Both the position numbers and the translations under genes were made by a program. Of a stretch of DNA of 46,998 bases, positions 1 to 46,669 are shown piece after piece; the stretch's first letter is position 1, and each line of letters starts with the position of its first letter. This DNA is from Eisenbergiella porci. GTDB taxonomy: Bacteria; Bacillota; Clostridia; Lachnospirales; Lachnospiraceae. Where the stretch lies: contig NZ_VUMI01000045.1 of the NCBI RefSeq assembly GCF_009696275.1, forward strand, positions 1-46,998, read 5' to 3'. A model generated the notes under the pieces. The model did not search any database, was not told the DNA's origin, and saw nothing but the letters and a program-made list of their open reading frames with translations.

Positions 1-126
1 ACCTATCGGGTTATCAGTTGTTGCTCATCCCTGCCGAGATAAGCCCGACGCTTTTAGCATCACATGGCCATAAGTCTATGAAGTATTACCCTCATAGCGT
101 GATGTTTGTGCGTCAACGTGTCGCAC
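1..126 (-). mobile_element. Group II intron, 5' end (incomplete)
   Basis: On the minus strand the virB4 reading frame breaks after ATC TTT G at position 127, and the next bases are GTGCGACACG, the conserved 5' end of group II introns (GUGYG). The first bases can fold as GTGCG...CGCAC. The rest resembles the start of domain I, but the window ends before the exon-binding loops and any reverse transcriptase can be seen. The intron lies in the sense orientation of virB4, so splicing could restore the message. Its 3' end is at 46906-46998. Confidence 0.85.
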
Positions 127-2323
127 CAAAGATGTTCTCCACTTCCCGGCTGGAGAGCAGGTCCTTCACATTCTGGGTGATGCCGGTGGGGATGCCTCCC
201 CATTTGCGGAACCGTTTCCAAATCTCCACGGAGTAGGCCGCCGTCTGCTCCTCCTTCAGGAGCAGATGGAACTCGTCCATGAAATACCGGGTGGCCTTGC
301 CCGCGCTGCGGTTCTGGGTCACGCGCCCCCACACCTGATCCTGCACCACCAGCATCCCGATCTTCTTCATCTGCTTGCCCAGGTCCTTGATGTCAAAGCA
401 GACGATGCGGTTGGTGATGTCCACATTAGTGCGGTGGTTGAAGATGTTCAGGGAGCCGGTGACATAAATTTCAAGGGCGGTCGCCACATGGCGGGCCTCC
501 TTCTCCTCCTGCTTTAAGAGCGCCTCGTAGAGGTCCTGCAAGAGGGGCATATTCTCCGGCCTGGGGTCCTCGAAATACTTCTGGTATATCTGGTGGACGC
601 AGCGGTCGATGACCGTTTTCTCCACCGGCTGGAGGCCCTCCTTGCCGCCTACCACCAGCTCGCACAGGGAGAGGATGAAGTCGGCTTTCAGGGCCACGGG
701 GTTGTCCTCCTCGGAGTAGTTCAGGTTGATGTCCATCGGGTTGACATACTGGCTGCTGGACGGGCTGATCCTGATGATCTGCCCGCCGAACCGCTCCACC
801 AGCGGCGCGTACTCCGCCTCCGGGTCGCAGATGATGACATCATCGTCCGACACAAGGAAGGCGTTGGCGATCTCCCGCTTGGCGGCGAAGGACTTGCCGG
901 AGCCGGGAGTGCCAAGGATCAGCCCGTTGGGGTTTTTAAGAGCCTTCCTGTCCACCATAATGAGGTTGTTGGAAAGGGCGTTCAGGCCGTAGTAGAGGGA
1001 CTCCTTCCGGTCCTGAAACAGCTCCTGCGTGGTGAACGGGATGAAGATGGCGGTGGAGCTGGTGGTAAGGCCCCGCTGTATCTCGATGAGGTTCTGCGCC
1101 AGCGGCAGGGAGGACATCAGCCCCTGCTCCTGCTGGAAGTCCAGCCGCCGCAGGACGCAGTTGTGCTTCTGGGCGATGCTCTGGGACTGGAACACATTGG
1201 TCTCCAGCTCCTGCTCGGTGCGCCCGGTGTTCATCACCAGGAACGTCACCATGAACATCCGCTCGTTCTGGCTCTGCAATTCCTTCAGCAGCGCCTTGGC
1301 GTCCCTGCCGTAGGTGGCGAGGTCGGAGGGGATGATGTCGATGTCGTACCCGGCGCGGACGGCCTTCTTCTGTTCCTCGATCTTGCTGCGGTCCAGCTCC
1401 GTGATGGTGTGCTTCACCGTCTTGATGGCCTTGTTCTGGTCGATGGACTGGATGTGCATGGTGACGATCTGGCTGGAGTCGATGTCCAGGATGTCCGCCA
1501 GCATACGGTCGCTGATGTCCGAGGCCGTGATGGACAAAAACGACATGGCCCCGTACATATCCCCCGCCTGGAAGGTGCGCCGGCCGTTGAAGGCAAAGGC
1601 GGCGGGTGCGATGAAGTCCTTCACGGAAAGCCCGGACTCCACCAGCCACTTCCACTCGAAGGCGAAGGGGTCACGGTCCCCCATGTGGAACATGGAGTGC
1701 ATCAGGCGCAGGCGCTCCTTCCCGTTCAGCACAGCGGCGGTCACGCCGATGCGCTTGAAGTTGTTGAGCAGGTCCGTCTCCACATGGTCCAGCCGGGGCT
1801 TCGCCTGCCGCATGGAGGCCGCCTCGATGCCGAAGGTCAGGTACTTCGCCTTTGTCAGGCCGTTGTTGCCCCTGGCAAGCTGGCTTTTCAGCATCTGGCT
1901 GTACTCCGCCCGGACGCTGTCAAAGGCGTCCCCCGCAGGCGGGATGCGGACGGACTTCTCGAAGCTCTCCGCGTCGGTCGCCATGTTCATGAAGGACAGC
2001 TCAAAGTGGATGGAACTGTCGAAGAAGTTGAGGAAGCTGCACCACTCCTCGAAGATGGCCGTCTTGTCCTCCTGCTGGGCCAGCTGGTAGTTGATGTCGT
2101 TGAACTGGACGGTCTTGGTGTAGTAGTTGTCCGTCACACGGCAGATGCCGTCCGGGAACATCCTCTGGAACGGGATGGACTGCTGGGCGGTGCGGGGAGT
2201 GCCGTCATCCCTGCGGGCCTTCTCGATGATGGCCCTAATCTGTTTTTTCTCCGCTTTTGTCAGGCTTGCGGGGAGAGCGATCGGCTCCGCTTTCCCGCGC
2301 CCGCCTTTCTGCGTTTTGAACAA
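127..2323 (-). CDS. virB4: VirB4-family conjugation ATPase, exon 1 (residues 1 to about 732)
   Basis: Energizing ATPase of the type IV secretion channel, acting at the inner face of the membrane. Walker A GTPGSGKS is at about residues 471-478, and the Walker B-like segment RYFMDEFHLLL near 676-686. I place the start at TTG 2323, nine bases after GGAGG (2333-2337); this gives an 89-bp overlap with prgI. An ATG farther upstream would extend the frame into prgI and has no ribosome site. The frame runs to ...VENIF and is then cut by the group II intron. The missing C-terminus (NSDF..., 46905-46670) is at the other window edge; joined, the protein is about 810 residues, normal for the family. Neighbours PrgI, TrbL and Maff2 confirm the mating-channel context. 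Confidence 0.93.
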
Positions 2324-2678
2324 TGGCCTGTACCTCCTTTTCCACTTGGTCCTGCCGCATGAGGGCAGAGTAATAGTTGTTGGTCGCATAGGGACGGACC
2401 TTCGGGCGGATGAACTTCGCCTGGATGAAATGCCGCGCCACCGCCTCCAGCGGCTGGCCGTCCTTCTCGTACATGGCGAGGAAGAACAGCGGGAGCATGA
2501 GGACGATCATCCCCATGACGGCGAGGCTGGTGTTGCCGGAGCGTTTCATCAGGAAGAACGCAGGGACGCCGATGAGCGCCGCCGCGCCGAAGCAGACGAG
2601 CTGCCGCTTCGTCAGCCCAAAGAACACCTTGGTCTTTACCCGCGTCAGGTCGCGGGGGATGGAAATATACGCTGCCAT
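2235..2678 (-). CDS. PrgI family conjugation membrane protein
   Basis: A 147-residue protein with the PrgI layout: a short N-terminal segment (AYISIPRDLTRVKTKVFFGL), two closely spaced membrane helices (about residues 28-46 and 51-70), then a cytoplasmic tail. PrgI-family proteins are small VirB3-like partners encoded next to VirB4 in Gram-positive type IV secretion systems. The start ATG at 2678 follows AAAGGAGG. The stop of the VirB6-like gene is 18 bp upstream, and virB4 starts inside its 3' end, so VirB6-like, PrgI and VirB4 are probably made together. Family assignment is strong; the direct partner is inferred from gene order. Confidence 0.9.
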   Translation of the reverse strand: MAAYISIPRDLTRVKTKVFFGLTKRQLVCFGAAALIGVPAFFLMKRSGNTSLAVMGMIVLMLPLFFLAMYEKDGQPLEAVARHFIQAKFIRPKVRPYATNNYYSALMRQDQVEKEVQAIVQNAERRARESGADRSPRKPDKSGEKTD

Positions 2679-2696
2679 GATGACCTCCTTTCCCGG

Positions 2697-3563
2697 TCAA
2701 TGGGCGTTCAGTACGCTTCGGGCAAGGCCCCCGGTCTTGAACAGGGTGAACACCAGCAGGACCGTGTACCCCACCACGCCCCAGAGGGAGCCGACTATAT
2801 CCGAAGTGAACGAGATGGACTGTATCAGCACAGCGTAGATGCCGACACAGATGATGATGAGGAAGCCCTGGAAGCCCAGGGCGAACAGGGAGCGGAGGTA
2901 GTTCTGCCCGGTCTGGCTCTGTTCCCGGTTCCCGAAGGTAGAGAGCGGGATGGGCGCGAGGCTTGTCATCAAATACACCTCTATCATACGGCCGTAGACG
3001 ATGACGAAGATCACGATGGAGAGTATCCAGAGGGTGAGCTGTATCACAAAGCTCATCAGGTAGATGCCCAAAAGCGTACCCACGCCGTAGGTCGAGAGCG
3101 TGGCCTCCATCGCGGCGATGGCCTCATCGCTGACCGATGTGGACGCGCCGATGATGCCCCCGCTCTGGGAGATCACGCTCTGGCAGACATCAAAGACCGC
3201 CATCACGATGTTGAAGCAGTTGGAGATGAGCGTGACAGCCACGAAGGTCTTGAATATCCACTTGAAGATGATCCATGTCTCGAAGTTCGAGAGGTTGTTA
3301 TGCTCAATGATGAGCTGGATCAGCTCGTAACAGGCAATGAAGGTGAGGATCAGCCCCGCTATGGGGATGATGACGGTCTCCGATACGCTGCGTATCATGG
3401 AGAAGATGCCAGGGGAGAAGCTCGCCGGGGTCATGCCCACATCCATGGCGATCTCCCCCACGCGGGAGTTGACCGAATCGAAAACACCTGTGAGGTTGCC
3501 CATGATCCCGCTGATCAGAAGCTCTTTGAGCCATTCCGCGATTGCGTCAAGAATACTGCCCAA
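2697..3563 (-). CDS. VirB6/TrbL-like polytopic conjugation protein
   Basis: A 288-residue membrane protein with several hydrophobic segments: about residues 57-85 (IIPIAGLILTFIACYELIQL), 100-125, 160-190 and 245-280. An N-terminal amphipathic part starts MGSILDAIAEWLKELL. Size, topology and place between Maff2 and PrgI fit the VirB6/TrbL-like component of Clostridia conjugative elements, part of the inner-membrane channel. The best start is TTG 3563 behind AAAGGACAAGG; no ATG is better placed. A GC-rich hairpin (3595-3622) lies between the upstream Maff2 gene and this start. VirB6 function is inferred from topology and neighbours because sequence conservation in this family is low. Confidence 0.8.
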   Translation of the reverse strand: MGSILDAIAEWLKELLISGIMGNLTGVFDSVNSRVGEIAMDVGMTPASFSPGIFSMIRSVSETVIIPIAGLILTFIACYELIQLIIEHNNLSNFETWIIFKWIFKTFVAVTLISNCFNIVMAVFDVCQSVISQSGGIIGASTSVSDEAIAAMEATLSTYGVGTLLGIYLMSFVIQLTLWILSIVIFVIVYGRMIEVYLMTSLAPIPLSTFGNREQSQTGQNYLRSLFALGFQGFLIIICVGIYAVLIQSISFTSDIVGSLWGVVGYTVLLVFTLFKTGGLARSVLNAH

Positions 3564-3594
3564 ATCAAATACCTTGTCCTTTCATCTGGTGGGG

Positions 3595-3622
3595 CAGGGC
3601 GGCAGGGCGCCGCCCCGCCCTG
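3595..3622 (-). other. GC-rich hairpin upstream of the VirB6-like gene
   Basis: Perfect 8-bp inverted repeat CAGGGCGG/CCGCCCTG with a 12-nt loop and no following T-run, so it is not a classical terminator. Similar stems without T-runs precede both Maff2 genes. An mRNA-stabilizing or processing role is inference. Confidence 0.5.
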
Positions 3623-3651
3623 GTTACAGCGGGCCTTGTCCTGCCTCCGTG

Positions 3652-3870
3652 TCAGGCGGTGAACAGCCCGGAGAGCAGGGGGACCAAGGTGATACCGATG
3701 AGGGCGACGCCTCCGCCCGCCATCAACTGTTTCATGCCCTGGCTCTTGGCTCCGGGGTTGTCGTTGCCGTAGCCCTCCAGAAGGTTGATCGCGCCCCACA
3801 CGCCGAGGCCGGCGCCCAGCGCCACAACGAGGGTCTGCAGCACATTGATCGCACTGTTGAAAAATGCCAT
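3652..3870 (-). CDS. Maff2 family small membrane protein, copy 1
   Basis: A 72-residue protein (MAFFNSAINVLQTLVVALG...) of the Maff2 family, with two hydrophobic stretches: about residues 9-28, and 50-70 ending VPLLSGLFTA. A conserved polar loop (EGYGNDNPGAKSQG) lies between them. Size and topology recall VirB2-like pilins, and these genes lie beside VirD4 and VirB6-like genes, but pilin function is inference. A good ribosome site (AAGGAGGACAAAAAT) precedes ATG 3870. It differs from copy 2 at one residue (N9 here, G9 there), so the pair is a recent tandem duplication. Confidence 0.88.
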   Translation of the reverse strand: MAFFNSAINVLQTLVVALGAGLGVWGAINLLEGYGNDNPGAKSQGMKQLMAGGGVALIGITLVPLLSGLFTA

Positions 3871-3894
3871 ATTTTTGTCCTCCTTAAAGTCGGT

Positions 3895-3915
3895 GGGCGG
3901 GAGATGCCCCCGCCC
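3895..3915 (-). other. Hairpin in the leader of Maff2 copy 1
   Basis: GGGCGGG (minus strand) pairs with CCCGCCC across a 7-nt loop, about 14 bases before the ribosome site. An equivalent stem, GGGCGG/CCGCCC, lies at 4323-4344 before copy 2 although the surrounding bases differ. There is no T-run. Conservation of pairing between copies suggests a functional mRNA element. Confidence 0.5.
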
Positions 3916-4079
3916 GGAAACAGGTCTGCTTGGTTACGAAAACACGGGATTCCCCCGGTTTTATGCGGCTTTCCCAGTCTGGCCCGCTGAATGGATGCCT
4001 GCCATTGTAAGGGTGGGGGCAGCTCCATTTCCGGCAGGCCAGGGGGAGAACCGCCGCCCTTATGGGCGGGATGCCAGCG

Positions 4080-4298
4080 TCAGGCGGTGAACAGGCCGGA
4101 GAGCAGGGGAACGAGGGTGATGCCGATGAGGGCGACGCCTCCGCCCGCCATCAACTGCTTCATGCCCTGGCTCTTGGCTCCGGGGTTGTCGTTGCCGTAG
4201 CCCTCCAGAAGGTTGATCGCGCCCCACACGCCGAGGCCGGCGCCCAGCGCCACAACGAGGGTCTGCAAAACACCGATCGCACTGTTGAAAAATGCCAT
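4080..4298 (-). CDS. Maff2 family small membrane protein, copy 2
   Basis: A 72-residue two-helix membrane protein, identical to copy 1 except for Gly at residue 9. Start ATG 4298 follows AAGGAGGACAAAGTT; a longer frame reaching upstream crosses the hairpin leader and is not supported. It is the first gene after virD4 and its terminator (4493-4516), and is separated from copy 1 by about 210 bp. Possible roles are a VirB2-like channel or pilus subunit, with two copies raising dosage. The role is not shown by sequence alone. Confidence 0.85.
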   Translation of the reverse strand: MAFFNSAIGVLQTLVVALGAGLGVWGAINLLEGYGNDNPGAKSQGMKQLMAGGGVALIGITLVPLLSGLFTA

Positions 4299-4322
4299 AA
4301 CTTTGTCCTCCTTCAAGACAGT

Positions 4323-4344
4323 GGGCGGAGCCTTTGCCCCGCCC
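4323..4344 (-). other. Hairpin in the leader of Maff2 copy 2
   Basis: Minus-strand GGGCGG pairs with CCGCCC across a 10-nt loop, just upstream of the GGAGG of copy 2. It is the counterpart of the stem at 3895-3915 and has no T-run. Confidence 0.5.
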
Positions 4345-4492
4345 GGTTCGTGGAATGGTTTTGATGGTGCAAAAGGGCGCCCGCCGTCCCGCACAGTCAG
4401 CCCGCCTGTTGGATGCCTGCCGTAAGGTGAGTGGGGGCAGCTTCATTACAGGCGGGCGCTGTTCCGTGCAGGGAGGGAACGCCCGGACATGG

Positions 4493-4516
4493 AAAAAGCC
4501 CCGCAGAGGGGGCTTT
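4493..4516 (-). terminator. Intrinsic terminator after virD4
   Basis: Minus strand AAAGCCCC-CTCTGC-GGGGCTTT followed by TT: an 8-bp stem, 6-nt loop and U-run, 13 bp after the virD4 stop. It sits between virD4 and the Maff2 genes of the same module, so it either limits read-through or is itself regulated. Confidence 0.75.
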
Positions 4517-4528
4517 ACGGCGTGACGC

Positions 4529-6280
4529 TCATCCGTCCGCGTCGATCACTTCAAATTCGTCCTTCGCCCGCAGCTTCAGCCGGTGGTCCAGGAACTTCTC
4601 GATGTCGAAGCGGTTCTTCTCGTCACAGTCCGCCGTGTACTGGAAATTGGGGTGCTTCGTCAAGTCGTACTTGTCCGACAAAAACGGCCTCACGCCCCGG
4701 ATCTGGAGGATGCACTTGCCGCCGTCCAGCACCGCCAGCTCGTCCACGCTGGCAAGCTCATGGCCCGTCCGCTGGTAGTTCACGCTGTGGGACTCCTGGC
4801 TGCCCTTGCTCACCCCGGTGTTGAACATATCTATGGTCTCCTTGCCCAGGGCGGCGGAAAGCTCCTTCAAGGTGGTCGGCTCACTGCCGCCGAGGAAGAT
4901 GCGGGTGTCCATGTTGCCGATGATGGTGTCGGCGTTGTCCTTGTAGATCGCCTTTAGCTGGCTCTGCGCCTGCAAGACCAGGCAGGCCGATATTTCCCGG
5001 CTTCGGATGGTCGCCACCAGCTTCTCCAGGTTCGGTATCTGCCCGATGTTGGCGCACTCGTCAATGAGGCAGCGCACATGGACCGGGAGCCGCCCGTGGT
5101 ACTGGTCGTCCGCCTTCTCGCACAGCAGGTTGAAAAGCTGGGTGTAGATCATGCTGATGAGGAAATTGAAGGTGCTGTCCGTGTCGCTCATGATGAGGAA
5201 CAGGGCGGTCTTCCGGTCCCCCAGGGTGTCCAGCTCCAGCTCGTCATACCGGGTGATCTCCCGCAGTTCGGCGATGTCAAAGGGAGCCAGCCGAGCGCCG
5301 CAGGAGATGAGGATGGATTTTGCTGTCTTGCCGGCCGCCAGCTTATAGAGCCGGTATTGGCGGACAGCGAAGTGGTCCGGCTCTTTCTTTTCCAGCGCCT
5401 CAAACATCTGGTCGATAGGGTTCTGGAACGTCTCATCGTCCTCCCGGACTTCCATAGCGTTCAGGAAGGTGATGAGCGTCCCGAAGTTCTGCTCCTCCAC
5501 GGGCGCGATATAGTGGATATAGGCGATGAGCGCCGTGTAAAGGAGCTTCTCGGCTTTCTCCCAGAACTGGTCCCCGCCCTTGCCCTCGCCCTGCGTGTTC
5601 ACCATCAGCGTTGTCACCAGCTTCAGGATGTCCTTCTCCGAGTGGATATAGGCGAAGGGGTTGTAGTGCATCGACTTCTTGAAATTGATCGTGTTAAAAA
5701 TCTTGATGCGGTACTTGTTCCGCACCAGGACGGCCCCGCATTCCTCGACGATCCCCCCTTTTGGATCAGTGATGACATACGAACTATGGCACTGTAAAAG
5801 GTTGGGCTTGAGCCAGAACCTGGTCTTGCCGCTACCGGAGCCGCCAACGATCAGCACGTTCTTGTTCCGGGCGGTCTTGGGGTCCTTGGGACGGCTGTTC
5901 ATGGTGAGGCTCTCCGTCCGTGTCAGGATGACATTGTTCTCAAACACGGGGTCCGCGAACGGCTCGATGTCCTTCGGGCCGCCCCATCTGGCGCTCCCGT
6001 ATTCCTCCCCGTGGCGGTATTTCTTGGCGTTCTTGCTCCGCACATACACCACCAGCCGGAACGCCGCGCCGATGGCAAGCCCGATGCACAGGTCGAAGGG
6101 GTGGAAGCTGGGCATGGGGTTCCCCCACGCCGTACCCATCGAGGTGAAAAAGCCGAGGAGCTTTGTGGAGATGTCCGTACCCTCCGCGATACGCCACGCT
6201 TCCCCGATATTGGAGCAGAACAGCCCGATGATGGCATAGGGGATGTTCAGGATGATGAGTTTCTTTGTTTTCTGGTTCAT
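4529..6280 (-). CDS. virD4: VirD4-family type IV coupling protein
   Basis: A 583-residue coupling ATPase that brings the relaxosome to the conjugation channel. It has two N-terminal membrane helices (about residues 8-26 and 62-82), Walker A GGSGSGKT (about 144-151), and Walker B-like RCLIDECANIG (about 402-412) followed by the LEKLVATIRSREIS segment typical of VirD4/TraG proteins. Length is usual for the Gram-positive branch. The start overlaps the PcfB stop by 4 bp (ATGA), so the two are translationally coupled. A terminator follows at 4493-4516. Confidence 0.95.
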   Translation of the reverse strand: MNQKTKKLIILNIPYAIIGLFCSNIGEAWRIAEGTDISTKLLGFFTSMGTAWGNPMPSFHPFDLCIGLAIGAAFRLVVYVRSKNAKKYRHGEEYGSARWGGPKDIEPFADPVFENNVILTRTESLTMNSRPKDPKTARNKNVLIVGGSGSGKTRFWLKPNLLQCHSSYVITDPKGGIVEECGAVLVRNKYRIKIFNTINFKKSMHYNPFAYIHSEKDILKLVTTLMVNTQGEGKGGDQFWEKAEKLLYTALIAYIHYIAPVEEQNFGTLITFLNAMEVREDDETFQNPIDQMFEALEKKEPDHFAVRQYRLYKLAAGKTAKSILISCGARLAPFDIAELREITRYDELELDTLGDRKTALFLIMSDTDSTFNFLISMIYTQLFNLLCEKADDQYHGRLPVHVRCLIDECANIGQIPNLEKLVATIRSREISACLVLQAQSQLKAIYKDNADTIIGNMDTRIFLGGSEPTTLKELSAALGKETIDMFNTGVSKGSQESHSVNYQRTGHELASVDELAVLDGGKCILQIRGVRPFLSDKYDLTKHPNFQYTADCDEKNRFDIEKFLDHRLKLRAKDEFEVIDADG

Positions 6281-6756
6281 CGCTCACGCTCCTGGTTCTT
6301 CTCCCGCACCTTGGAGGGGATGGACTTGGCAAGCTCCTTCAGGTGCGCCAGGGCTTTCAGGACGCTGGGCCGCTTCTCTTTCTGGGACAGCTTCACGGAA
6401 TACTCCTTGAAGGCGGCGGTCAGCACATCGGCGTCCTTTGCCTTGAAGAACACCATAAAGCGGGGCGGCTCCTGGGACACATCCTTTCGGATGGCATAGT
6501 CCACGCCGTACTTGTTCAGCACCCGCTCAAAGTCCTTGATGCCGCTCTTTGCGATGTCGATCTGCTGCGCCCCCTGGTCCTTGCGGATCAGCTTCTCCAC
6601 GGTCATCTTTCCGTGGTCGCCCTCCGCCGCCCTGCCGGCCTTCACCCGCGCCCGGTGCTGGCAGTATTTTCGGAACGCCGCCACCAGTGTCCGCCCGGTC
6701 AGCTTGCTGGTGCTTATCATCAGGTTTACGGTCCTGTTCTCTACTTCCTCCTGCAA
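6277..6756 (-). CDS. PcfB family (DUF3801) conjugation protein
   Basis: A 159-residue basic protein matching the PcfB/DUF3801 pattern, with the N-terminal VNLMISTSKLTGRTLVAAFRK segment and a central DIAKSGIKDFERVLNKYGVDYAI segment. In pCF10, PcfB is an accessory factor associated with the relaxosome and coupling protein. The 4-bp overlap with virD4 agrees with a direct VirD4 partnership. There are no membrane segments; the C-terminus is highly charged (REKNQERER). The start ATG at 6756 follows GCAGGAGG about 20 bases upstream, so a start slightly inside is also possible. Confidence 0.85.
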   Translation of the reverse strand: MQEEVENRTVNLMISTSKLTGRTLVAAFRKYCQHRARVKAGRAAEGDHGKMTVEKLIRKDQGAQQIDIAKSGIKDFERVLNKYGVDYAIRKDVSQEPPRFMVFFKAKDADVLTAAFKEYSVKLSQKEKRPSVLKALAHLKELAKSIPSKVREKNQERER

Positions 6757-6813
6757 ATCTCATTCCCCCTTTCTGCGGAAACGGCACTGGCACTGGAGGT
6801 ATGCGCCGGGGTC

Positions 6814-7314
6814 TCAGATGTGGAACGCCGGGAAGTCCTTCCCATCGGCGTAGAGGGTCACGGTATGGTCGGCAAAGTAGACCACGGCGGCGATCACATC
6901 CTCCGCAGAGAGGGAAACGCCGTCCCCGTCCTCATCGTACTTGTAGACGATCACGGGGCCGAGCAGATACCGCTCCCTGCCCAGGTTCAGGACGCGACGC
7001 CCGTCAAAGACGATAGCCAGCCCCGCCACATCCAGGGCATCGTCCGACACGACCTCCAGGCAGTCGTACTTGCCTTTGCTCTCGATCTCGTCCCAGCACT
7101 GGGTCTCCTGCATGACCTCCGGGGTCTTGTCCGGGCGCATCACCATCACGATGGAGTCCGCCTCGGCCTCCGTGACGGCGGCCTCCTCCGCCGCGTCGTG
7201 CAGATAGTCCTCCAGGGAGTCCACCAGCTTTTTGTAGCCGGGCCTGTCCGCCCTGTCGGGCATGGACAGGTTGATGTTCACATCACCGTTGAAGTGAAAG
7301 TGGATACTGTTCAT
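6814..7314 (-). CDS. Conserved element protein of unknown function (166 aa)
   Basis: An acidic, soluble 166-residue protein starting MNSIHFHFNGDVNINLSMPD. I do not recognise a named domain. Start ATG 7314 is chosen because AAAGGAG lies ten bases upstream; a longer frame would run through a terminator and into parB. No membrane segment or signal is visible. The N-terminal half looks like a short beta strand followed by helices (YKKLVDSLEDYLHDAAEEAAV); the C-terminal half has the pattern of a small beta-rich domain. It sits between parB and pcfB in the transfer module, with a terminator directly in front of its ribosome site. Confidence 0.75.
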   Translation of the reverse strand: MNSIHFHFNGDVNINLSMPDRADRPGYKKLVDSLEDYLHDAAEEAAVTEAEADSIVMVMRPDKTPEVMQETQCWDEIESKGKYDCLEVVSDDALDVAGLAIVFDGRRVLNLGRERYLLGPVIVYKYDEDGDGVSLSAEDVIAAVVYFADHTVTLYADGKDFPAFHI

Positions 7315-7338
7315 AAGCGTAAAACTCCTTTTTTTCAT

Positions 7339-7365
7339 AAAAAATGCGCCCCGCAAAAGGGGGCG
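7339..7365 (-). terminator. Intrinsic terminator between parB-like gene and the 166-aa gene
   Basis: Minus strand CGCCCC-CTTTTGC-GGGGCG followed by CATTTTTT, starting 2 bp after the ParB stop. The T-run ends only about 14 bp before the next ribosome site, leaving no room for a promoter, so the downstream gene needs read-through. Confidence 0.75.
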
Positions 7366-7367
7366 TG

Positions 7368-8270
7368 TCACCGCTGCTGGTCCCGCTGCCGCCGCCTCTG
7401 CCACTGCTCCAGCAGGCGGAGGATGGTATCGCTCATCTGCCTGGGCGTGTAGGACTTGGGGAAGAACTTCTGGAGGTCGCTGGTCCTGAAAGCGATCTGC
7501 CCCAGGTCGTCCTTCTTCACCTCGTCCATGATGCTGCACATATCGTCCAGGGTGCAGCCGCTCTCCTGGCTCTTTTTCTTCATGCGCTGGGCCTGCGACA
7601 CAGAGGGTGCGGCCTGGGCGTAGTCCATCGCCTCCAGGAAGTTCCGCTGTTCCTCCGGCTTCAGGTAGGACAGCTCCACGGCGGGCGTCATGGAGATTTT
7701 CTTCTCGTCCACCATATCCAGGATTTCGGGGATCAGTTCTGTCAGGCGGATAAAGCGGCGCACAGAGTCCTTGCTCGTACCGGCTTGTTCCGCGATGATG
7801 TCCCTGGATTTTTTCCCGTCCAACTTGTGCGCGTCTTGCTCACAAGTTAGGTCGGTCCGGCTCCCCTGATGCTTCAAAGCCTCCAGCTTCATCTTGTAGG
7901 CTTTTGCCCTCTCGCTGGGCAGGATGTTCTCCCGCTGGAGGTTGGAGTCCACCATCATGATGACGGCGGCGTCATCGTCCAGTTCCCGGACAATGACGGG
8001 GATGGTGTCCAGCCCTGCCAGTTCTGCGGCGTGGTGGCGGCGGTGGCCGGAGATGATCTCATACCCGCCGTCCTGGTCCGGGCGCACGATGAGGGGATTG
8101 GCAACGCCCATCTGCCGGATGCTCTCTACGGTCTCCGCCATAGCATCGTCATCCAGCACCTTGAAGGGATGCCCTTCAAAGGGGTGCAGTTGGGAGAGGG
8201 GCATCCGCTGGACGGTCTCCGTCACGGCCTCAGCCGGTGCCTCCGCCTCTTTTTTCTTTGCTCTTGGCAT
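7368..8270 (-). CDS. ParB/RepB/Noc-like partition protein
   Basis: A 300-residue protein with an N-terminal ParB nuclease-like/CTP-binding domain. The hallmark GHRRHHAAE is at about residues 75-83, preceded by PLIVRPDQDGGYEIIS. A central helix-turn-helix region (DIIAEQAGTSKDSVRRFIRL, about 155-174) and a basic C-terminus ending QRRRQRDQQR follow. ParB-like proteins bind centromere-like sites for segregation or condensation; in conjugative elements they may stabilize the excised circle or regulate transfer. No ParA is visible. The start ATG 8270 follows GAGGTGAACACAA. Two strong terminators stand upstream and one directly downstream. Confidence 0.88.
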   Translation of the reverse strand: MPRAKKKEAEAPAEAVTETVQRMPLSQLHPFEGHPFKVLDDDAMAETVESIRQMGVANPLIVRPDQDGGYEIISGHRRHHAAELAGLDTIPVIVRELDDDAAVIMMVDSNLQRENILPSERAKAYKMKLEALKHQGSRTDLTCEQDAHKLDGKKSRDIIAEQAGTSKDSVRRFIRLTELIPEILDMVDEKKISMTPAVELSYLKPEEQRNFLEAMDYAQAAPSVSQAQRMKKKSQESGCTLDDMCSIMDEVKKDDLGQIAFRTSDLQKFFPKSYTPRQMSDTILRLLEQWQRRRQRDQQR

Positions 8271-8310
8271 TTGTGTTCACCTCGCTTTCTCAATGTGGGT
8301 TTATGGGAAA

Positions 8311-8360
8311 AAGAAAAAAGGCGTGTACCCCAGCCCCCCAGCGGGGCAGGATACACGCCT
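8311..8360 (-). terminator. Intrinsic terminator upstream of parB-like gene (inner)
   Basis: Minus strand 9-bp stem AGGCGTGTA/TACACGCCT, extended inside by a CCCC/GGGG pairing, then TTTTTCTTTTT. It lies about 25 bases before the parB ribosome site, so parB is expressed only through it or from a promoter I cannot see. Confidence 0.8.
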
Positions 8361-8380
8361 ATGTACCAGTCTGCGGACGC

Positions 8381-8432
8381 AAAAAAAGAGCGGATACCGA
8401 CCGCTGGATTTCTCCAACGGCGATACCCGCTC
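8381..8432 (-). terminator. Intrinsic terminator upstream of parB-like gene (outer)
   Basis: Minus strand GAGCGGGTATCGCCG... pairs with ...CGGTCGGTATCCGCTC over about 18 bp with minor mismatches, then TTTTTTT. It is in tandem with the terminator at 8311-8360, giving a very strong stop between the recombinase block and the transfer module. Confidence 0.8.
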
Positions 8433-8548
8433 TATGAAGTCTTGCTTTGTTTGATTGTGGGCGTTCTACCCTCCTTGCGCCGCCCTGCGCTCTTGTTATC
8501 CTCTGTTTTGGGTCAAAAAACAGAACCAACACCACAAAACCCGCATTT

Positions 8549-8836
8549 TTAGGGGCTTTCTGCGTTTAGTTCTAAAATAACACAATCATCTTTTACGATG
8601 ATGCAGTCGATCTTATTGGCCCGCACCATCTCAATCAGCTCCTGGACTTTGGGTCGCTCAAAGTTTGTCCCGCTATACCCGTTGTCGATAAATTCAAGGA
8701 CTTCTGCATGGGCGGACTCCGGCATGGAAGAAACAAATTCGTTCAGCGCAAGGTGCTGGTTTTCAATGCTCATACTGTCGTATTTATAATCCTCCAAGGA
8801 AAGGCGGATATAAAGGGCAATCACATATTTCTGCAC
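8549..8836 (-). pseudogene. Truncated large serine recombinase (N-terminal fragment)
   Basis: A 95-residue frame with the N-terminal resolvase fold of large serine recombinases. The catalytic serine region is ALYIRLSLEDY near residues 7-17, with the FIDNGYSGTNFERPKVQELI segment after it. The homology stops after CIIVKD, where intact relatives continue with LSRFGRN, and an unrelated tail (DCVILELNAESP) follows. All of the recombinase and zinc-ribbon domains are missing. GTG start at 8836 overlaps the upstream recombinase by 16 bp. The break near 8575 marks a junction between the recombinase block and the ParB/transfer module. It might give a dominant-negative fragment, but loss of function is simpler. 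Confidence 0.8.
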
Positions 8837-10479
8837 TGGCTCAGCACCTCCTCACAATGTTCAAATTCACTTTGGAAACGGAAACGAACCGTAATCCGCT
8901 TTTCTCTTGAGACCTCTATACGGTCAATCAGGCGGTCAATCAGGGCTGCCGTCAGATGGCGATCTTCCTTGATATGCTGTGCATCCTGGGACAGCATTTT
9001 GTACTGTTCCAGCTGCTTGGCGATGATTGCAAGCCCTGCTTTCAGCTGTTCGATTTCCTTGCTGATGGCCTCGATTTTGGCTTCGTACTTCTCTTTGAAG
9101 GTAAAATACTCGTCTTTTGACAGATGGTTCTGGATCAGGCCCTCATACAATCCGCGCTGGTAGGTACGCAGCTGCTGGATTTCCTGTTTTCGGCTGGAAA
9201 TTTTAGCCTGTATGTTTTTCTGCTCTTCGGCTTCTTTGGTGAGGTTTTCCAGGCCGAGAGAGTATTGCCCCAGCGTGGTATCGAGTTGTTCCTGTATCAT
9301 ATCGGCCAAGGCATCCAGCAGCTCTTTTTCAAAGATAAAAGCACCAGGACAAACGCCCTTTTTGATACGGTTATTGCTGATACAGTGATAGACATATACC
9401 TCCTGTGATTTTCTGCGGACGCATTTTTGCCGATGAAGGCTATGACCACAGTGGGCGCAGAAGATCTTGCCTCTCAAAAGATTAGGAGACCAGGAATGTA
9501 TCTCCCTGTCTTTTGCCTGCTGTGCAGCCTGGTCCAATGCTTTCTGAACAGCGGCAAACAGCTCCCGGCTGATGATGGCTTCATGGGTGCCGCGTACTGT
9601 TGTCCATTCATCGGCGCTGGCTCTGACCTGCTTGTGGTCAATGATTTTAGATACCCCTTGCACCAGATCTCCGGTATAAACCTCTGCGCGGAGAATTTTG
9701 GCAACGGTGCGGGTTTGCCAATGCCCATTGCCCACCAGATTCTCATGGGTGATCTCTCCCAAGGTTCTCTTGTAGTGGCTGGGAGAGAGATACCCAGCCT
9801 CGTTCAAGCGTACCGCGATAGTGTTTAATCCTGCGCCCTCGGCGGCCCATTGAAACATGGTTTTGACTACCTCGGCAGCCACCGGGTCAACAATCAGCTT
9901 GTGGCAGTCATTAGGAGCTTTCAAATATCCATAGGGTGTACGCCCGCCAACATACTTGCCTTCTTTCATGGCCTGCCGCTGCTGGGCTTTGATTTTTCTG
10001 GCAATATCCATCGCATAGGCTTCGTTAATCATGTTCCGCAGCGGGATGATGATCCCATCGTGGGCATTGTCCGGGGAAGAAGAATCGTAGCGGTCATTCA
10101 CGGCAATAAACCGGACTTTCTGCGTAGGAAAGTAACGCTCAATGTAGTAGCCGGTGTCTATGACATTTCGCCCAAGGCGGGAGAGGTCTTTTACAATGAC
10201 ACAGTTGATAAGACCCGCTTCAATATCGGAGAGCATCTGCTGGAAGCCGGGACGGTGGAAGTTCGTACCCGTTGCGCCATTGTCAATGTAGGTCTGTACC
10301 ACAATAATCTCCGGGTTCTGCTCCAGATACCGGGCGATAATCAGCTGCTGGGTTTCAATAGAGGCGGTGTGAGTATGCTTATCCTCAACGGAAAGCCGCA
10401 CATAAACTCCGGCGCGGCAAGAGGTATCTATCTCCGGTGCAGGAAGCACCACAGCTTCTTTTCTGCTTTTTCTTGCCAC
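8821..10479 (-). CDS. Large serine recombinase, apparently intact
   Basis: A 552-residue site-specific recombinase. It has an N-terminal resolvase domain with the catalytic serine in VYVRLSVEDK (about residues 25-34) and IVKDLSRLGRN (about 96-106). A central recombinase domain follows (RTPYGYLKAPND..., about 180-290), then a zinc ribbon beginning IFCAHCGHSL (about 340-400), a coiled-coil region (about 410-500) and a basic tail. This layout fits TnpX/TndX-like integrases that excise and insert Clostridia elements. GTG start 10479 is preceded by AAGGTGG and lies 4 bp from the upstream recombinase stop. Of the three recombinases here it is the only one with a full uninterrupted frame, so it is the best candidate for moving the element. 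Confidence 0.9.
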   Translation of the reverse strand: MARKSRKEAVVLPAPEIDTSCRAGVYVRLSVEDKHTHTASIETQQLIIARYLEQNPEIIVVQTYIDNGATGTNFHRPGFQQMLSDIEAGLINCVIVKDLSRLGRNVIDTGYYIERYFPTQKVRFIAVNDRYDSSSPDNAHDGIIIPLRNMINEAYAMDIARKIKAQQRQAMKEGKYVGGRTPYGYLKAPNDCHKLIVDPVAAEVVKTMFQWAAEGAGLNTIAVRLNEAGYLSPSHYKRTLGEITHENLVGNGHWQTRTVAKILRAEVYTGDLVQGVSKIIDHKQVRASADEWTTVRGTHEAIISRELFAAVQKALDQAAQQAKDREIHSWSPNLLRGKIFCAHCGHSLHRQKCVRRKSQEVYVYHCISNNRIKKGVCPGAFIFEKELLDALADMIQEQLDTTLGQYSLGLENLTKEAEEQKNIQAKISSRKQEIQQLRTYQRGLYEGLIQNHLSKDEYFTFKEKYEAKIEAISKEIEQLKAGLAIIAKQLEQYKMLSQDAQHIKEDRHLTAALIDRLIDRIEVSREKRITVRFRFQSEFEHCEEVLSQCRNM

Positions 10480-10482
10480 AAA

Positions 10483-12111
10483 TCATCCCACCTTTCTTTG
10501 GCTTGTTTGCTCTGCCAGTTGAATTAGCTGGATTGCTTTCTGGTATTCATCCTGATATGTAAAGGTGATCTCCAGTTCCTTTTTCCCAATCACCTTGATG
10601 CTCTGTATCATGTGAACCACAGCTTTGCGGTCCAGGGTCTCCATCGTAGAAAACTGTGTGAAGTGAGAAATCCAGCGGTTCCGTTCACTCCGGTTCTCCA
10701 GAACATCAGCCAGCTTTTCCTTTAAGACTCGGATACTCTCTTTTGCATTTTCTGCAATTCTCGTGTATCTGGCCTTATAGTCGGTATATTCCTCTTTGCT
10801 GATGGTGCCGGTAATCAGGCTTTCATACAGTCGGGCCTTAAATTCAAGCGCCTGTTCCACCTGTTGCTCATTGGCGGCGATGTGGGAGGCGTATTCATTG
10901 GCAAGCGCCTGATTGATACTGCTCTGGTCGATACCGTCCAGGATAGCTTGCAGACAGCTCACATTGTCGATGTAGCCTTTTAGACTGTCCTTGACGCACT
11001 CTACAAGATCGCTTTCCTTGAGCATTACCGGATTGGCGCAGCCATGCTTTTTCCCAGTGGGACAATAATAATAGTGGTATTCCTTGTCTTTAGCCCGGTT
11101 CGTTTTCCGCGTCATGCGGCTCCCACAGCACCCGCAGATTAAGACACCGGAAAACAGATACACCGTATCCTGCTTGGGAGAAGTCCGGGTATCCAATCTG
11201 CGGATACGCTGGACAAGTTCAAAATCCTACTTGGCAATCAGCGGCTCATGGGCGTCAGGAACGCGAATCCATTCAGAGGATGGCCGCTGCTCCATCTGCT
11301 TGATTTTGTAGTGTGGCGTGCCTTGCTTCCCCTGTACCAATGTGCCGATGTAGGTTTCATCCCGCAAAATACGAATAATCGTTGTAGCAGACCACTTGCA
11401 ATCCTCTTTGTCGGCATAGCCGTGTTTGGCATAGGGAAAACCATTATTTTTCTTATAGGCCAGGGGGGAGAGGATGCCCATTTCGTTCAGCACGGTGGCG
11501 ATCCGCAGGGCGCTTGTCCCATCCAGGCGCATACGGAAGATGTCCCGGACAACGCGGGAAGCATACGGGTCAGGTACAAGCAGATTTTTGTTTTCCTCGG
11601 ATTTCATATAGCCGTAAACGGGAAAGGCTCCAACAAAATCTCCGTTACGCCGCTTTATATCCAAAGAGGTACGGGTCTTGATGGAAATGTCCCGGCAGTA
11701 GGCTTCGTTCATAATGTTCTTGACGGATACGGTCAGATCGTCACCGCTGCCTTCATGGGCGGTGTCGATGTTATCCGTGATGGCAATAAAACGGACCCCA
11801 TAAGTGGGGAACACCCGGCGCAGATAGCGTCCGGTTTCAATGTACTCTCGTCCCAGGCGGGAGAGGTCCTTTACAATGACGCAGTTGATCTTGCCATCGG
11901 TGATGTCCTGCATCATTTCCTTAAACGCCGGACGGTCAAAAATGATACCGCTATAACCATCGTCGTTTTTTTCGGATACGATTTGAATGTCCGGGTTTCG
12001 TTCAATAAAGTTCTCAATCAGCTTTCGCTGGTTGGTAACGCTGTCGCTCTCGCTGGAGCGATCATCGGTGTATGACAGACGAATGTAAGCTGTCGCCTGA
12101 TATTTTGGCAT
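10483..12111 (-). pseudogene. Large serine recombinase interrupted by one amber codon
   Basis: From ATG 12111 (AAAGGAG nine bases upstream) a resolvase domain (AYIRLSYTDD, then IVKDLSRLGREYIE) and recombinase domain run 294 residues to ...HEPLIAK. An in-frame TAG follows at 11227-11229. The same frame then continues DFELVQRIRRLDTRTSP into the zinc ribbon (ICGCCGSRM), coiled coil and C-terminus down to 10483. Joined, it is about 542 residues, a normal length. Gln is the likely original residue (CAG to TAG). Either the gene is dead, or the amber is read through; the isolated N-terminal part would keep the catalytic domain. It is the first gene of the three-recombinase operon. Confidence 0.82.
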
Positions 12112-12233
12112 GAAAAAGCACTCCTTTCCTCCCGGAAGCTCCCGCAAGAAAAGAGTGGATTTTGAGGTTTTCAGTTTTCATCCTTTTCCATGCACATCGT
12201 AACACACTTTTGAAAAAAGAGCGAGGATGTCGA

Positions 12234-12458
12234 TTACCTTAAAATCCCTTGCAGGCATTCCTCTAATGTGACCCCGTTGCTGGCAAATGCGGCGTTTACT
12301 ACAAAATCGCCGCAGCGAAAGCGATAGGGGTTTTTGATTTGGTGAAGAAAGGCCGCTATCCGTTCCTCTTTGGGAAGGTCTTTGTCTACCGTGACTTCAC
12401 GGATGTCAACCAATTCATCGGTTGTCGTTTTTGGCCAGCATTGCGTCAACTGGCTCAT
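12234..12458 (-). CDS. Small conserved protein (DUF6870-like)
   Basis: A 74-residue soluble protein, MSQLTQCWPKTTTDELVDIR... with the core NPYRFRCGDFVVNAAFASNG. It resembles a small family I recall as DUF6870, common beside recombinases in Firmicutes elements; function is unknown. Start ATG 12458 follows AAAGGAGAACCCTT; an upstream extension to 12530 lacks a ribosome site. It stands alone between the recombinase operon and a 500-bp noncoding stretch. Confidence 0.7.
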   Translation of the reverse strand: MSQLTQCWPKTTTDELVDIREVTVDKDLPKEERIAAFLHQIKNPYRFRCGDFVVNAAFASNGVTLEECLQGILR

Positions 12459-12530
12459 AAGGGTTCTCCTTTCTTTGAAGTCGGTTTCAAAATCACATGA
12501 ATGAGCTGGCAACCGGAGCTGCCAGCTCAT

Positions 12531-13006
12531 GGTATCTGACTTTGAAAAGAAAGGACTGCACCCAAATAATGCCTTGTTGTTGCTAACAGCAAATGGACAC
12601 AGCCTTTCAGATTATTTCCGTTGCTTTCGTCACATTTGCCACGCGCCCCTGACGATAGGGACATTCCTGGTCTCCGCTGGCGCGGCTGTCATAACTCCGC
12701 AGCGTCGTTTTACTCGTGCGCCGCAGGGTTCCCCTCCAAGTCTTTAGGAGGCCGTGAGGAAGTATCTTTAAGCCCCCATGCAGTCATCGCGCCCCGAAAT
12801 GCCGCTTTCGGGTATCAGGCTGGCGTAGATCGCTCGGAACAGTCCTGTTCATCACCTCCTGGGCTGTCCATCTTCGCGGCGCGCCTGATTCGCTCGTACA
12901 TGGGTTATGTACCGGAAATGCCGTCTATTCAGTTGTCAATGTACCAATGAAGGTGATAAGTTGTCCTTCTAATGGTAGTGAAGAAAACGGCGACATTTTG
13001 GCCATG
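12531..13006 (-). other. 476-bp noncoding stretch with strong potential RNA structure
   Basis: No convincing gene. On the minus strand it holds stem-loops such as CCCGAAA-GCGGCA-TTTCGGG and CCTCC-TAAAGACTT-GGAGG. It also holds an AGGAGGTGAT that matches the 16S anti-Shine-Dalgarno over ten bases (near 12860), directly followed by a 22-codon frame starting MNRTVPSDLR. A plus-strand frame of 109 codons also crosses it but has no ribosome site and looks like a by-product. It may be the leader or an untranslated RNA between the sigma-like gene and the DUF6870-like gene. Confidence 0.45.
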
Positions 13007-13882: not shown

Positions 13883-16150
13883 TTACAACTCATTGATGGT
13901 TTCGGTGATTGCCATGCTCTGCATACGTTTGGCAGGGCCATGGACTGCAACGATACATGAAAACATAACCAGCAAGATTATAATTCCAATAGTGCTGAAT
14001 GGGATATTCCAAAAACCACCAAAATGACTAATGACAATCTTCACATAAATCAAATAGTGAAGTATCAACCCAAGTGCAGTTTCGGCAATTGTGCCGCAAG
14101 CAGCGTATGTTACTGCCTCTGCCGTTATCATCTTTGTAACCTGCCTGCTTTCCATCCCGACAGCACGCATTGCACCGTATTGCTTCACCTTTGCAGACAC
14201 ACTCATTGAAATGCTGTTCATAATATTCAACACGGTTATCAGAGAAATGATTGCCAGGAAACCGTATGCCGCAATTCGGAATACCCAGTAGGAGCCAGAA
14301 ACTTCGTTCTTTTCTTCCCTGTCATCGAAAAATTGATATCCATCAGACAAATCACGAATCTGCTCTACTTCCGATTCGGAAATATCACTTTTTGTTATTA
14401 CGCTCACTGTAGCATAATCCTGCTCCCCTGTTAGATTCCGATAGGTTTCTTCTGAACACACCACAACGGTCGCGCCGCTGACGCTCCCAACTCCTTCGGA
14501 TGCAACACATGCTACTTCAACCTCGTTATTTCCAATCTTTATTTTATCCCCCACATTCAGATGTCCGGCATCATTATAGACCGCCATCACGTAATCAGAA
14601 TCCCCATAAACACTTGATAAATCTCCACTTATCATTGACCCTTTGAAGCTGTCCAGCATAAAATCCCCATAAGAAAACAGGTCAATCTTCCCTGCGTTGC
14701 CGTTAATTTCAACAGGATAATCTATATCAAACATCATGCCAAAAGTAGACTCTACACCTGATATTTCTGAAATATCTTCTAACAACCTTCTATCTATGGA
14801 ATTTGATTCGTCTTCGCTCGCAATCGTAATATCCGGCGTGAAATCACTCACTGACGGAAGCAATTTATGCACAACATCAAGGCAGGCGGAAAAAGCCAAG
14901 AACAGTACGATTGTAAGGGCAAAGGAGCCTGTCATCAGAAACAGGTTTTTCTTAGACGCTGTCGCATGGTGGATTCCAAGGGAGGTTTCTACTTTAAAAA
15001 GCTTCGTATTTGCCGCATGGACCACTTTTTTCGATGATTCTGAATTTCCGGATACGGCTGCTACCGGGGAAACTTTTGCTGCATGTTTTGCAGGGGACTG
15101 CGCCGCAATAAATACCGTAACTACGCCCACAACAGCTCCGCAAAGAATGCCGCTTATGCTTACCGAAAAAAGAGGCATATCCACCCATTCTCCTTTTACA
15201 AAGAACCGCAATACCGCACATGCTATCCAACAAGTTACCGTCCCTAATGCACATCCAATCGGGATAGCGGTTTTGCACCAGTTCAATGCCTCAAGCCTTA
15301 CAAGCCGTACAATCTGCTGTTTGCTTGCCCCAACACACCGCATCATTCCAAAAAACTTTGTCCGCTGCGCCACATTACTGTTCATGCAACCTGAGATCAT
15401 TAAAACACCGGCAATCAATATGATTACAAAACAAGTAATTGCCAGAGGATAAAGATCGCTTACCCTTTCATCGGTGCTGGCTCCCAGCAAACTTAAAACT
15501 GCCGTGTTCTCCTTAACATTTTCATCCGTAAGGTTATATTGCTCTTTCATTTCAGCAATCGTTTTCTTCAAGCCCTTCTCTTTCTCGAACCGGATATAAA
15601 ACTGAGACGATGCTTCCACGCCATTCAAGCTGCGTACTTCATCAAATGCCTCTCTGTTCATGTACACGCAGCTACCTTCAATGATGTCGTTAAACTCTGT
15701 ATCATCCTCATAAAATCCAGAAACGGTGTATTCAAGAACCCCCGCAGGCGTATTTAAGGCAATCCTGTCCTTCACCTTAATTCCAAAAAGCTCTTTTGCG
15801 TCAGCACTGAGCGCAACTTCTTTCCCACTCTGAGGATAAGCACCTTCCGTTGGATAATTCATAATGTCTGTAACGTATGCTTCCTCAGCGCCATATAAAA
15901 CCGCATTTTTGCCATTTATATAATAGCCCTGATCAGCATCACCATTGATCACATCATACCATGAGAAAACCCCAACATTAGCATTTCCGCAAATCTGTTC
16001 TGCTTTATCTTCCGGTACATTTTGAAGGGCAATGTGCCAGTTCCCATGATTATGGCGCATTGCAGTTGTCTGCCCTTCCGTCCACATTTCCGGCATGGAA
16101 AAAATTGCAGTTACGAGGAAGACAGCAAGAATAATACAAATTCGTGTCAT
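13883..16150 (-). CDS. ABC transporter permease (FtsX-type), copy 2, with amber codon near its N-terminus
   Basis: A 755-residue frame with the FtsX/MacB layout: N-terminal helix, a large extracytoplasmic domain of about 190 residues, three helices (near 240-350), a second domain, and three C-terminal helices ending AITETINEL. It is probably an exporter or detoxification permease for envelope-active compounds. The true start appears to be ATG 16210, overlapping the ATPase stop by 4 bp and behind GGAGG; its peptide [17 protein letters not shown] matches copy 1. Codon 18 is TAG (16157-16159) where copy 1 has Gln. The listed frame restarts at ATG 16150 without a ribosome site and would lose the cytoplasmic leader, so the gene may be damaged. 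Confidence 0.8.
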   Translation of the reverse strand: MTRICIILAVFLVTAIFSMPEMWTEGQTTAMRHNHGNWHIALQNVPEDKAEQICGNANVGVFSWYDVINGDADQGYYINGKNAVLYGAEEAYVTDIMNYPTEGAYPQSGKEVALSADAKELFGIKVKDRIALNTPAGVLEYTVSGFYEDDTEFNDIIEGSCVYMNREAFDEVRSLNGVEASSQFYIRFEKEKGLKKTIAEMKEQYNLTDENVKENTAVLSLLGASTDERVSDLYPLAITCFVIILIAGVLMISGCMNSNVAQRTKFFGMMRCVGASKQQIVRLVRLEALNWCKTAIPIGCALGTVTCWIACAVLRFFVKGEWVDMPLFSVSISGILCGAVVGVVTVFIAAQSPAKHAAKVSPVAAVSGNSESSKKVVHAANTKLFKVETSLGIHHATASKKNLFLMTGSFALTIVLFLAFSACLDVVHKLLPSVSDFTPDITIASEDESNSIDRRLLEDISEISGVESTFGMMFDIDYPVEINGNAGKIDLFSYGDFMLDSFKGSMISGDLSSVYGDSDYVMAVYNDAGHLNVGDKIKIGNNEVEVACVASEGVGSVSGATVVVCSEETYRNLTGEQDYATVSVITKSDISESEVEQIRDLSDGYQFFDDREEKNEVSGSYWVFRIAAYGFLAIISLITVLNIMNSISMSVSAKVKQYGAMRAVGMESRQVTKMITAEAVTYAACGTIAETALGLILHYLIYVKIVISHFGGFWNIPFSTIGIIILLVMFSCIVAVHGPAKRMQSMAITETINEL

Positions 16151-16206
16151 CCGGCTCTACCGTCTGTGTACCTTTGCCGAAATCGGGATAAGGCTTAAAT
16201 AGCTCT

Positions 16207-16890: not shown

Positions 16891-16948
16891 ATCAGATTAC
16901 ACCTCTTTCTGTCTTGGTATAGAAAGAGTAGCACGTCAACCCTACTGC

Positions 16949-16978
16949 ATTATGACAGCGACCCTACAATTTTGTAGG
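16949..16978 (-). promoter_or_regulatory. Probable response-regulator operator and promoter of ABC module 2
   Basis: The palindrome CCTACAA-TT-TTGTAGG (16963-16978) lies eight bases upstream of a minus-strand -10 box CATAAT (16949-16954), so it covers the -35 position. This is the geometry of an activator-dependent promoter. It is identical to the site before ABC module 1. The cognate regulator is probably the OmpR-type regulator at 21379-22086 (inference). Confidence 0.6.
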
Positions 16979-17765: not shown

Positions 17766-17773
17766 AATTCCTG

Positions 17774-20271: not shown

Positions 20272-20329
20272 ATCAGATTACACCTCTTTCTGTCTTGGTA
20301 TAGAAAGAGTAGCACGTCAACCCTACTGC

Positions 20330-46668: not shown

Positions 46669-46669
46669 C

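Follow-up and report, generated by a model that had tools for sequence, protein, structure and literature searches.

Does the virB4 gene that is cut at both ends of a contig from Eisenbergiella porci represent one gene divided by a single intron, or parts of two genes from different elements? The window, that is, the whole stretch of 46,998 nucleotides analysed here (NZ_VUMI01000045.1), begins and ends in group II intron sequence, and each of the intron pieces adjoins a part of virB4. The genome of the window (G000) consists of 149 contigs, among which the window is C90. The features on which the answer depends are the following, with the basis of each assignment in brackets:

1-126, minus strand: 5' end of the intron, first 126 nt, starting with GTGCGACACG, followed by the contig end (group II intron)
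127-2389, minus strand: virB4 exon 1 of ICE-Y, 754 codons plus one nucleotide, ending ...VENIF plus G (CD1110 family)
127-8590, minus strand: left part of ICE-Y, ending at the GA core at 8590-8589 (Clostridium porci C14 and G283:C108)
8589-8836, minus strand: 5' part of the third serine recombinase gene of ICE-X, broken at ...IIVKD (homologue on C81)
8589-46905, minus strand: right part of ICE-X, with virB4 exon 2, CD1108 protein, topoisomerase, helicase, relaxase, cargo and serine recombinases (alignment with C81)
46669-46905, minus strand: virB4 exon 2 of ICE-X, rest of the Glu codon plus 77 codons and stop (reading frame)
46906-46998, minus strand: 3' end of the intron, last 93 nt, domains V and VI, followed by the contig end (RF00029)

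Both edges of the window are true junctions between virB4 and an intron, and both intron pieces are in sense orientation relative to the gene. At the left edge, exon 1 (read from 2389 to 127) matches the NCBIfam model conju_CD1110 with 1000.8 bits, above its cut-off. A plasmid origin was considered and rejected, because no near match to this exon was found among 72,556 plasmid records. Directly 3' of exon 1, at position 126, GTGCGACACG corresponds to the GUGYG-type 5' end of mobile group II introns. At the right edge, domains V and VI (46990 to 46906) match Rfam RF00029 with 57 bits (E 1.1e-8) and fold with a z of -4.0; counted from the 3' end, the eighth and the twelfth nucleotides are unpaired A residues, and the terminal AU fits the 3' AY of mobile group II introns. 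Exon 2 begins with AAAACTCGGAC at 46905, encodes NSDFLVLL... and is 91% identical to the exon on C81. The first-pass annotation had described a virB4 that stops at ...VENIF with GTGCGACACG next to it, interrupted by a sense-oriented group II intron, and both descriptions were borne out. It had also placed the missing C-terminus at the right edge after domains V and VI; these domains are indeed there, but the exon 2 beyond them is that of ICE-X.

The insertion site was compared at 94 loci. The family of the window contributed 91, of which two belong to the same genome as the window, and viral or phage records contributed the other three. The search of the family covered 348 genomes, 65 of them matching at E 1e-100; since about two candidates per genome were scored, it does not list every virB4 gene, and the set of 94 omits at least three family matches (G222, n=1; G185, n=2). 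At 84 of the 94 loci the gap between the two virB4 parts is one codon, and these genes are empty at the site. The codon is Glu in 81 of them, Gly in two and Asp in one. The intron splits this codon after its first base, and G joined to AA gives Glu. As the 84 empty genes have exactly one codon there, the insertion took place without loss or duplication of the target, in agreement with the earlier claim on the restored Glu codon. Two loci have 2,789 nt exactly at the site, L112 (genome G289) and L091 (MT836027.1, a record labelled as bacteriophage, yet carrying ICE genes). A third complete intron at the site, also of 2,789 nt, was found in L211 (G625), outside the 94-locus count. At four loci (L070, L089, L090 and L151) the site could not be read across.

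Some of the 84 empty genes carry further inserts elsewhere in virB4, and several other insertions were observed in the relatives. L143 and L148 have additional group II introns near residue 705 of virB4 (RF02004, 103 bits each), and L070 has one near residue 684 (44 bits). In L097 (2440-2831) an in-frame insert of about 137 residues lies within the Walker A motif of VirB4, between GTPG and SGKS; this insert (CFDGETRIL...IVHN) is presumably a small intein. L150 has a gap of a similar kind. Four of the 94 loci (L074, L077, L141 and L142) have the site intact and an insert of 337-340 nt slightly upstream, non-coding and located between IPTG and ITQN. Taking GGT and ATCAC as their borders would give a T at the end of the exon and a G at the end of the insert, the pattern of group I introns. 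At the Rfam gathering score none of the four matched, and for the insert of L077 there were only chance-level snoRNA matches (E 5.2 and 7.7).

All three complete introns (L091, L112 and L211) encode a reverse transcriptase of 627 aa and match the domain I model RF02004 with 175.7-178.4 bits. The protein of L091 matches Pfam RVT_1 and the NCBIfam model group_II_RT_mat (341 bits); at 0.001 it gave no match to Pfam GIIM. Compared with the window intron, that of L091 has a 5' end about 86% identical and a 3' end 95% identical. In the window itself only 126 nt are present at the 5' edge, a stretch outside which the domain I core lies. A search of the genome for the intron body with PF08388 gave five matches (C72, C4, C122, C100 and C84), apparently among contigs of which none is shorter than 3 kb, and the body was not found: the genome-wide search with the 93-nt intron 3' end matched none of these five contigs, and direct inspection of C4 (whole) and C100 (end) showed that the window intron is not there. 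Since the body was not seen in this genome, the reverse transcriptase, EBS1 and splicing competence of the window intron are deduced from the relatives. We infer from them a length of about 2.8 kb with its own reverse transcriptase/maturase. The earlier expectation of an intron of about 2 kb with a reverse transcriptase has its counterpart in the three relatives, where the intron is longer, as given above.

The same relatives allow a comparison of targeting. At the putative position of EBS1, a shared alignment column, the virB4 introns have CGAAAAT and the related virD4 intron of L049 has GGTTGTT, each complementary, one G-U included, to its own exon end. A scan for EBS1 returned further complementary stretches also in L091, L112 and L090; because of these, the argument for EBS1-IBS1 rests on the shared alignment position. 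Comparison of relatives, the sole source on this point, supports a putative targeting of the virB4 site through EBS1-IBS1. The occupied exon 1 sequences of the two genomes carrying the intron (that of the window and that of Clostridium porci) end in ATCTTTG or ATTTTGG, whereas the equivalents in the two empty virB4 genes of the window's genome are ATCCTCG and ATTCTGG, and the target sequence may therefore matter. A good target is not sufficient, since ATCTTTG is also present in 49 of the 84 empty genes and in two of the three empty C. porci genes.

The intron of the window is one of many copies. Its 93-nt 3' end recurs with 100% identity at seven contig ends of the genome (C66, C67, C81, C90, C101, C104 and C123), each time next to a different virB4 exon 2, and its 5' end, 100% identical over 111-126 nt, is present at five contigs (C90, C10, C131, C107 and C135), adjoining five different virB4 exon 1 sequences. 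The claim that the two edge pieces of the window are the halves of one virB4 does not hold in view of these seven exon 2 and five exon 1 sequences. In two more virB4 genes, those of C118 and C59, nothing interrupts the main site, although the former has one in-frame TGA; this count leaves out four weak, more distant matches (23-34% identity). In Clostridium porci there are five intron 3' junctions (exact 19-nt pattern), four 5' junctions and three virB4 genes empty at the site, a tally that leaves four weaker matches (28-49%) unclassified. Taking both genomes together, the nine 5' ends (111-126 nt) and twelve 3' ends (93-126 nt) are all 100% identical, whereas the exon DNA beside them has a median ungapped identity of 71.5% for exon 1 (36 pairs, 58.7-100%) and 69.4% for exon 2 (66 pairs, 55.2-100%). 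Identical intron ends beside diverged exons indicate a recent spread of the intron and not joint descent with the host genes.

Other conjugation genes of the same genome are interrupted as well. On C112 (L053, at the contig end) and C124 (L054, at the contig start) virB4 is cut by a different group II intron between DPEAE and Y, with a match to RF02012 of 55 bits. On C131 (L055) virD4 appears split twice by group II introns around an exon of 24 residues, on C107 (L056) virD4 is split once, and on C135 (L057) a TrbL-like gene is split once.

The interior of the window shows that two elements meet at position 8589. The left part of ICE-Y contains ParB-like, PcfB-like, VirD4, TrbL-like and PrgI-like genes and virB4 exon 1. 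VirD4 was identified as CD1115 (NCBIfam, 545.3 bits), and a protein of ICE-X as CD1108 (242.8 bits), both above the cut-offs. The ParB-, PcfB-, TrbL- and PrgI-like genes are presumed to be such from gene order, and CD1110 VirB4, CD1115 VirD4 and the CD1108 protein are taken here to be markers of Tn1549/CTn-like ICEs. In the ICE-X part, the relaxase (PF03432) and the recombinase (PF07508/PF00239) were recognised by domain and the topoisomerase and helicase were named by eye. Window positions 8589-12939 and 22862-46330 are found as collinear pieces in C81, an ICE that has serine recombinases at its end, with gaps and at 80-95% identity; over most of its length the cargo (about 12.9 to 22.9 kb) differs from C81, with one piece of 453 nt at 71%. 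The GC content is 0.59-0.60 in the first 8 kb of the window versus 0.46-0.59 between 28 and 46 kb.

At 8589 the third recombinase gene of ICE-X is broken. Its homologue on C81 (17815-16289, 508 aa) is uninterrupted and continues past IIVKD, and the rest of the broken gene is C66:60118-61526, which is 95% identical to C81. The sequence adjoining upstream of C66:60118 is not that of ICE-X and is taken as the right end of ICE-Y. At the start of C66 the intron 3' end is followed by a virB4 exon 2, and helicase-like and topoisomerase-like ICE genes occur in the first 20 kb, the portion annotated; C66:127-60117 would be the right part of ICE-Y. Because the first part of the recombinase is in the window and the remainder is on C66 beyond the sequence of ICE-Y, ICE-Y lies inside ICE-X. 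The element is also present elsewhere. C. porci C14 (L210) matches window 1-8601 with 99.95% identity and diverges at the same place, beside a different serine recombinase, and 5,132 nt at the start of C66 recur with 99.98% identity at a contig end of C. porci. In G283:C108 (L173), 95% identical to window 5982-8614 with recombinase/att sequence as the last bases, the left end of a similar ICE lies within a recombinase gene, at the same VKD motif.

Several details of the nested elements may be added. Integration of an ICE at the conserved VKD motif of the serine recombinase genes of other elements was seen in three different target genes, and the apparent shared core is GA (window 8589-8590; C66:60117-60118; L173; L210). 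The first of the three adjacent serine recombinase genes of ICE-X (10483-12147) looks like two ORFs. The cargo at 13883-22086 was named by eye as ABC transporter ATPases, permeases and a two-component system, with two near-identical ATPase genes at 16207-16890 and 19588-20271, and is possibly related to antimicrobial peptides. In ICE-Y, a segment of 268 nt occurs twice with 92% identity (3651-3917 and 4079-4346), in or beside small genes between virD4 and the TrbL-like gene.

The co-divergence of N- and C-terminal parts gives another view of which exons pair. The set comprised 81 of the 84 empty genes (L136, L143 and L148 were left out, their N-part being barely readable), and 80 in a shortened comparison. 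Seven intact genes have an N-part 85-88% identical to window exon 1. Their C-parts share 67.5-74.0% with the right-edge exon, which is less than the lowest C identity (76.9%) among the 62 intact reference pairs of the 85-90% N band. To the exon of C66 the same C-parts are 77.5-88.3% identical; the exon of C101 (78.9-85.5%) fits exon 1 as well as that of C66. In leave-one-out panels of seven the own C-part was chosen in 970 of 1,600 cases (61%), and in four of 39 non-redundant intact pairs with N identity of 83-92% the C identity is only 59-65%. On its own, co-divergence is modest evidence for pairing; as a sole pairing test, the correlation of exon identities was rejected as too weak (61%). 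The likely partner of window exon 1 is the exon of C66, and that at the right edge is part of a different element. The other pairings suggested by this comparison would be C10 with C104, C107 with C67, C135 with C81 and C124 with C123. C131 with C101, and C112 with the right-edge exon, are the least certain of the proposed pairs; exon 1 of ICE-X is probably on C112.

We consider it very probable that an intron of about 2.8 kb encoding a reverse transcriptase has recently retrohomed, in a site-specific manner, into many ICE virB4 genes, and that the two ends of the window are two copies of it, with ICE-Y nested in ICE-X. The intron would enter the conserved ENIF-E-NSDF codon of virB4 in many Tn1549/CTn-like ICEs, both here and in C. 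porci. Its RNA would recognise the last bases of exon 1 via EBS1-IBS1 and insert at one phosphate, the retrohoming presumably consisting of reverse splicing and reverse transcription, and VirB4 would presumably be produced from spliced mRNA. ICE-Y, with its virB4 exon 1, would have integrated into the serine recombinase gene of ICE-X, to which exon 2 belongs, and the two window ends would be separate copies of the insertion event. With such an arrangement, transfer of the ICEs would depend on splicing of virB4.

Three other readings were weighed against this one. The window could be one circular or tandem ICE with a single virB4 split by one intron: both pieces are on the same strand, the phase is kept, and joining them would close a typical ICE gene order. 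This is very unlikely, given that the recombinase gene is interrupted at 8589 and resumes on C66 and that the C. porci contig carrying window 1-8601 continues differently (first 20 kb). Besides, the closest of the five intron-flanked exon 2 sequences of C. porci (exact match) is only 76% identical to the right-edge exon (55 residues), and both the GC contrast between 1-8 kb and 28-46 kb and the exon co-divergence argue in the same direction. The circular single ICE was rejected on the recombinase break, the remainder on C66 and the arrangement in C. porci. Even less credible is an assembly artefact, whether at the 8589 junction or in the shared intron ends. The contigs do break 93-126 nt into the intron, and 126 would equal k-1 for k = 127; but two other genomes also have this left end of ICE-Y within a recombinase gene and at the VKD motif, and complete contiguous intron-virB4 cases are found in three records.

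That the intron copies are decayed and the interrupted virB4 genes dead, with the ICEs relying on the two empty genes, is improbable, but less so than the foregoing. C118 and C59 are uninterrupted at the site (C118 with the in-frame TGA), and splicing of virB4 is a prediction from sequence. Against decay, all intron ends seen are identical, domains V and VI are well folded, relatives with the intron at the same codon encode the 627-aa reverse transcriptase, and ICE-Y has recently moved between distant hosts. This last point comes from the identity of ICE-Y across the two hosts (99.95-99.98% over the compared parts of 8.6 and 5.1 kb) and from its left end at different sites, compared with 70% DNA identity between a guaA-like gene (named by eye, the single gene compared) beside the ICE of C81 and its best match in C. 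porci. It suggests that the interrupted ICE-Y can still spread. ICE-Y could have carried and spliced the intron, or used the VirB4 of a helper ICE, or the intron could have arrived later in each host; as VirB4 from a helper could transfer ICE-Y, its spread does not prove splicing.

Recent retrohoming into nested ICEs, the preferred reading, would mean that one intron has swept through seven different virB4 genes of ICEs in one genome and reached a distantly related species as well. Such introns break assemblies, and ICE genes then appear cut short or wrongly fused; in the window, reading the pieces as one gene was plausible but joined two nested elements. The copies also offer a natural system for the study of how ICEs tolerate introns in essential transfer genes. 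A speculative extension, which we regard as rather unlikely, is that one intron lineage in most virB4 genes of a cell, through its maturase and spliced RNA, forms a shared trans-acting circuit that couples or damps the transfer of unrelated ICEs. If so, every interrupted ICE in the cell would rely on one common splicing factor, and free copies of the intron RNA could attack each virB4 mRNA.

Group II introns have been described in several conjugative systems. According to the accessible part of the work on Streptococcus suis ICEs (PMC12479173), site-specific intron families target the DPEXE motif of VirB4, a helicase and the coupling protein; several introns occur per strain, identical introns are shared across ICE families, false pseudogenes result, and splicing is stated as required for VirB4. 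The introns reported here are likewise site-specific, located in virB4 of ICEs and identical at their ends in different ICEs, but their main site, ENIF-E-NSDF, is about 230 residues downstream of the DPEXE site given in that text. The second virB4 intron of the window's genome (C112 and C124) does match the DPEXE motif. Ll.LtrB and Ef.PcfG, as described in the available portions of two studies (PMC5072309, PMC6003770), are relaxase introns for which homing into a co-resident relaxase gene is reported; splicing and mobility of Ef.PcfG were measured, and conjugation was 3- to 4-fold lower for Ll.LtrB. Like the present case, they involve near-identical introns that occupy one conserved site of a conjugation gene in different hosts, with more diverged exons; the host gene is the relaxase there and VirB4 here.

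Group II introns are also described in the parts seen of the reports on pAW63 (PMC1196294) and on a vanB2 Tn1549 variant (PMC4143159). As here, they lie in conjugation genes (orf14-like, VirD4-like) or in a Tn1549-type ICE, but the genes are other ones, or the position is described there with no gene named; the Tn1549 insert has 2,588 bp and a protein of 610 aa versus 2,789 nt and 627 aa here. Group II introns have been counted among the mobile elements of the gut in a study whose accessible text contains no virB4 case at ENIF-E-NSDF (PMC6907783). An intron at this site was absent from the titles and abstracts of the literature searched, a collection that lacked most subscription papers. Among the 5,000 best plasmid records listed, the closest reverse transcriptase is ltrA of Enterococcus faecium plasmids (62.4% over residues 4-627 of 627); in the one record inspected, NC_017961.1, its neighbours are mobT and a hypothetical gene, and it is not in virB4. 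The intron of the window is, as judged from the accessible text of the S. suis work, a further case of an ICE virB4 intron, at another VirB4 site than the one named there, and it is remarkable for how many different ICEs it has entered in a single genome, without being a new kind of thing.
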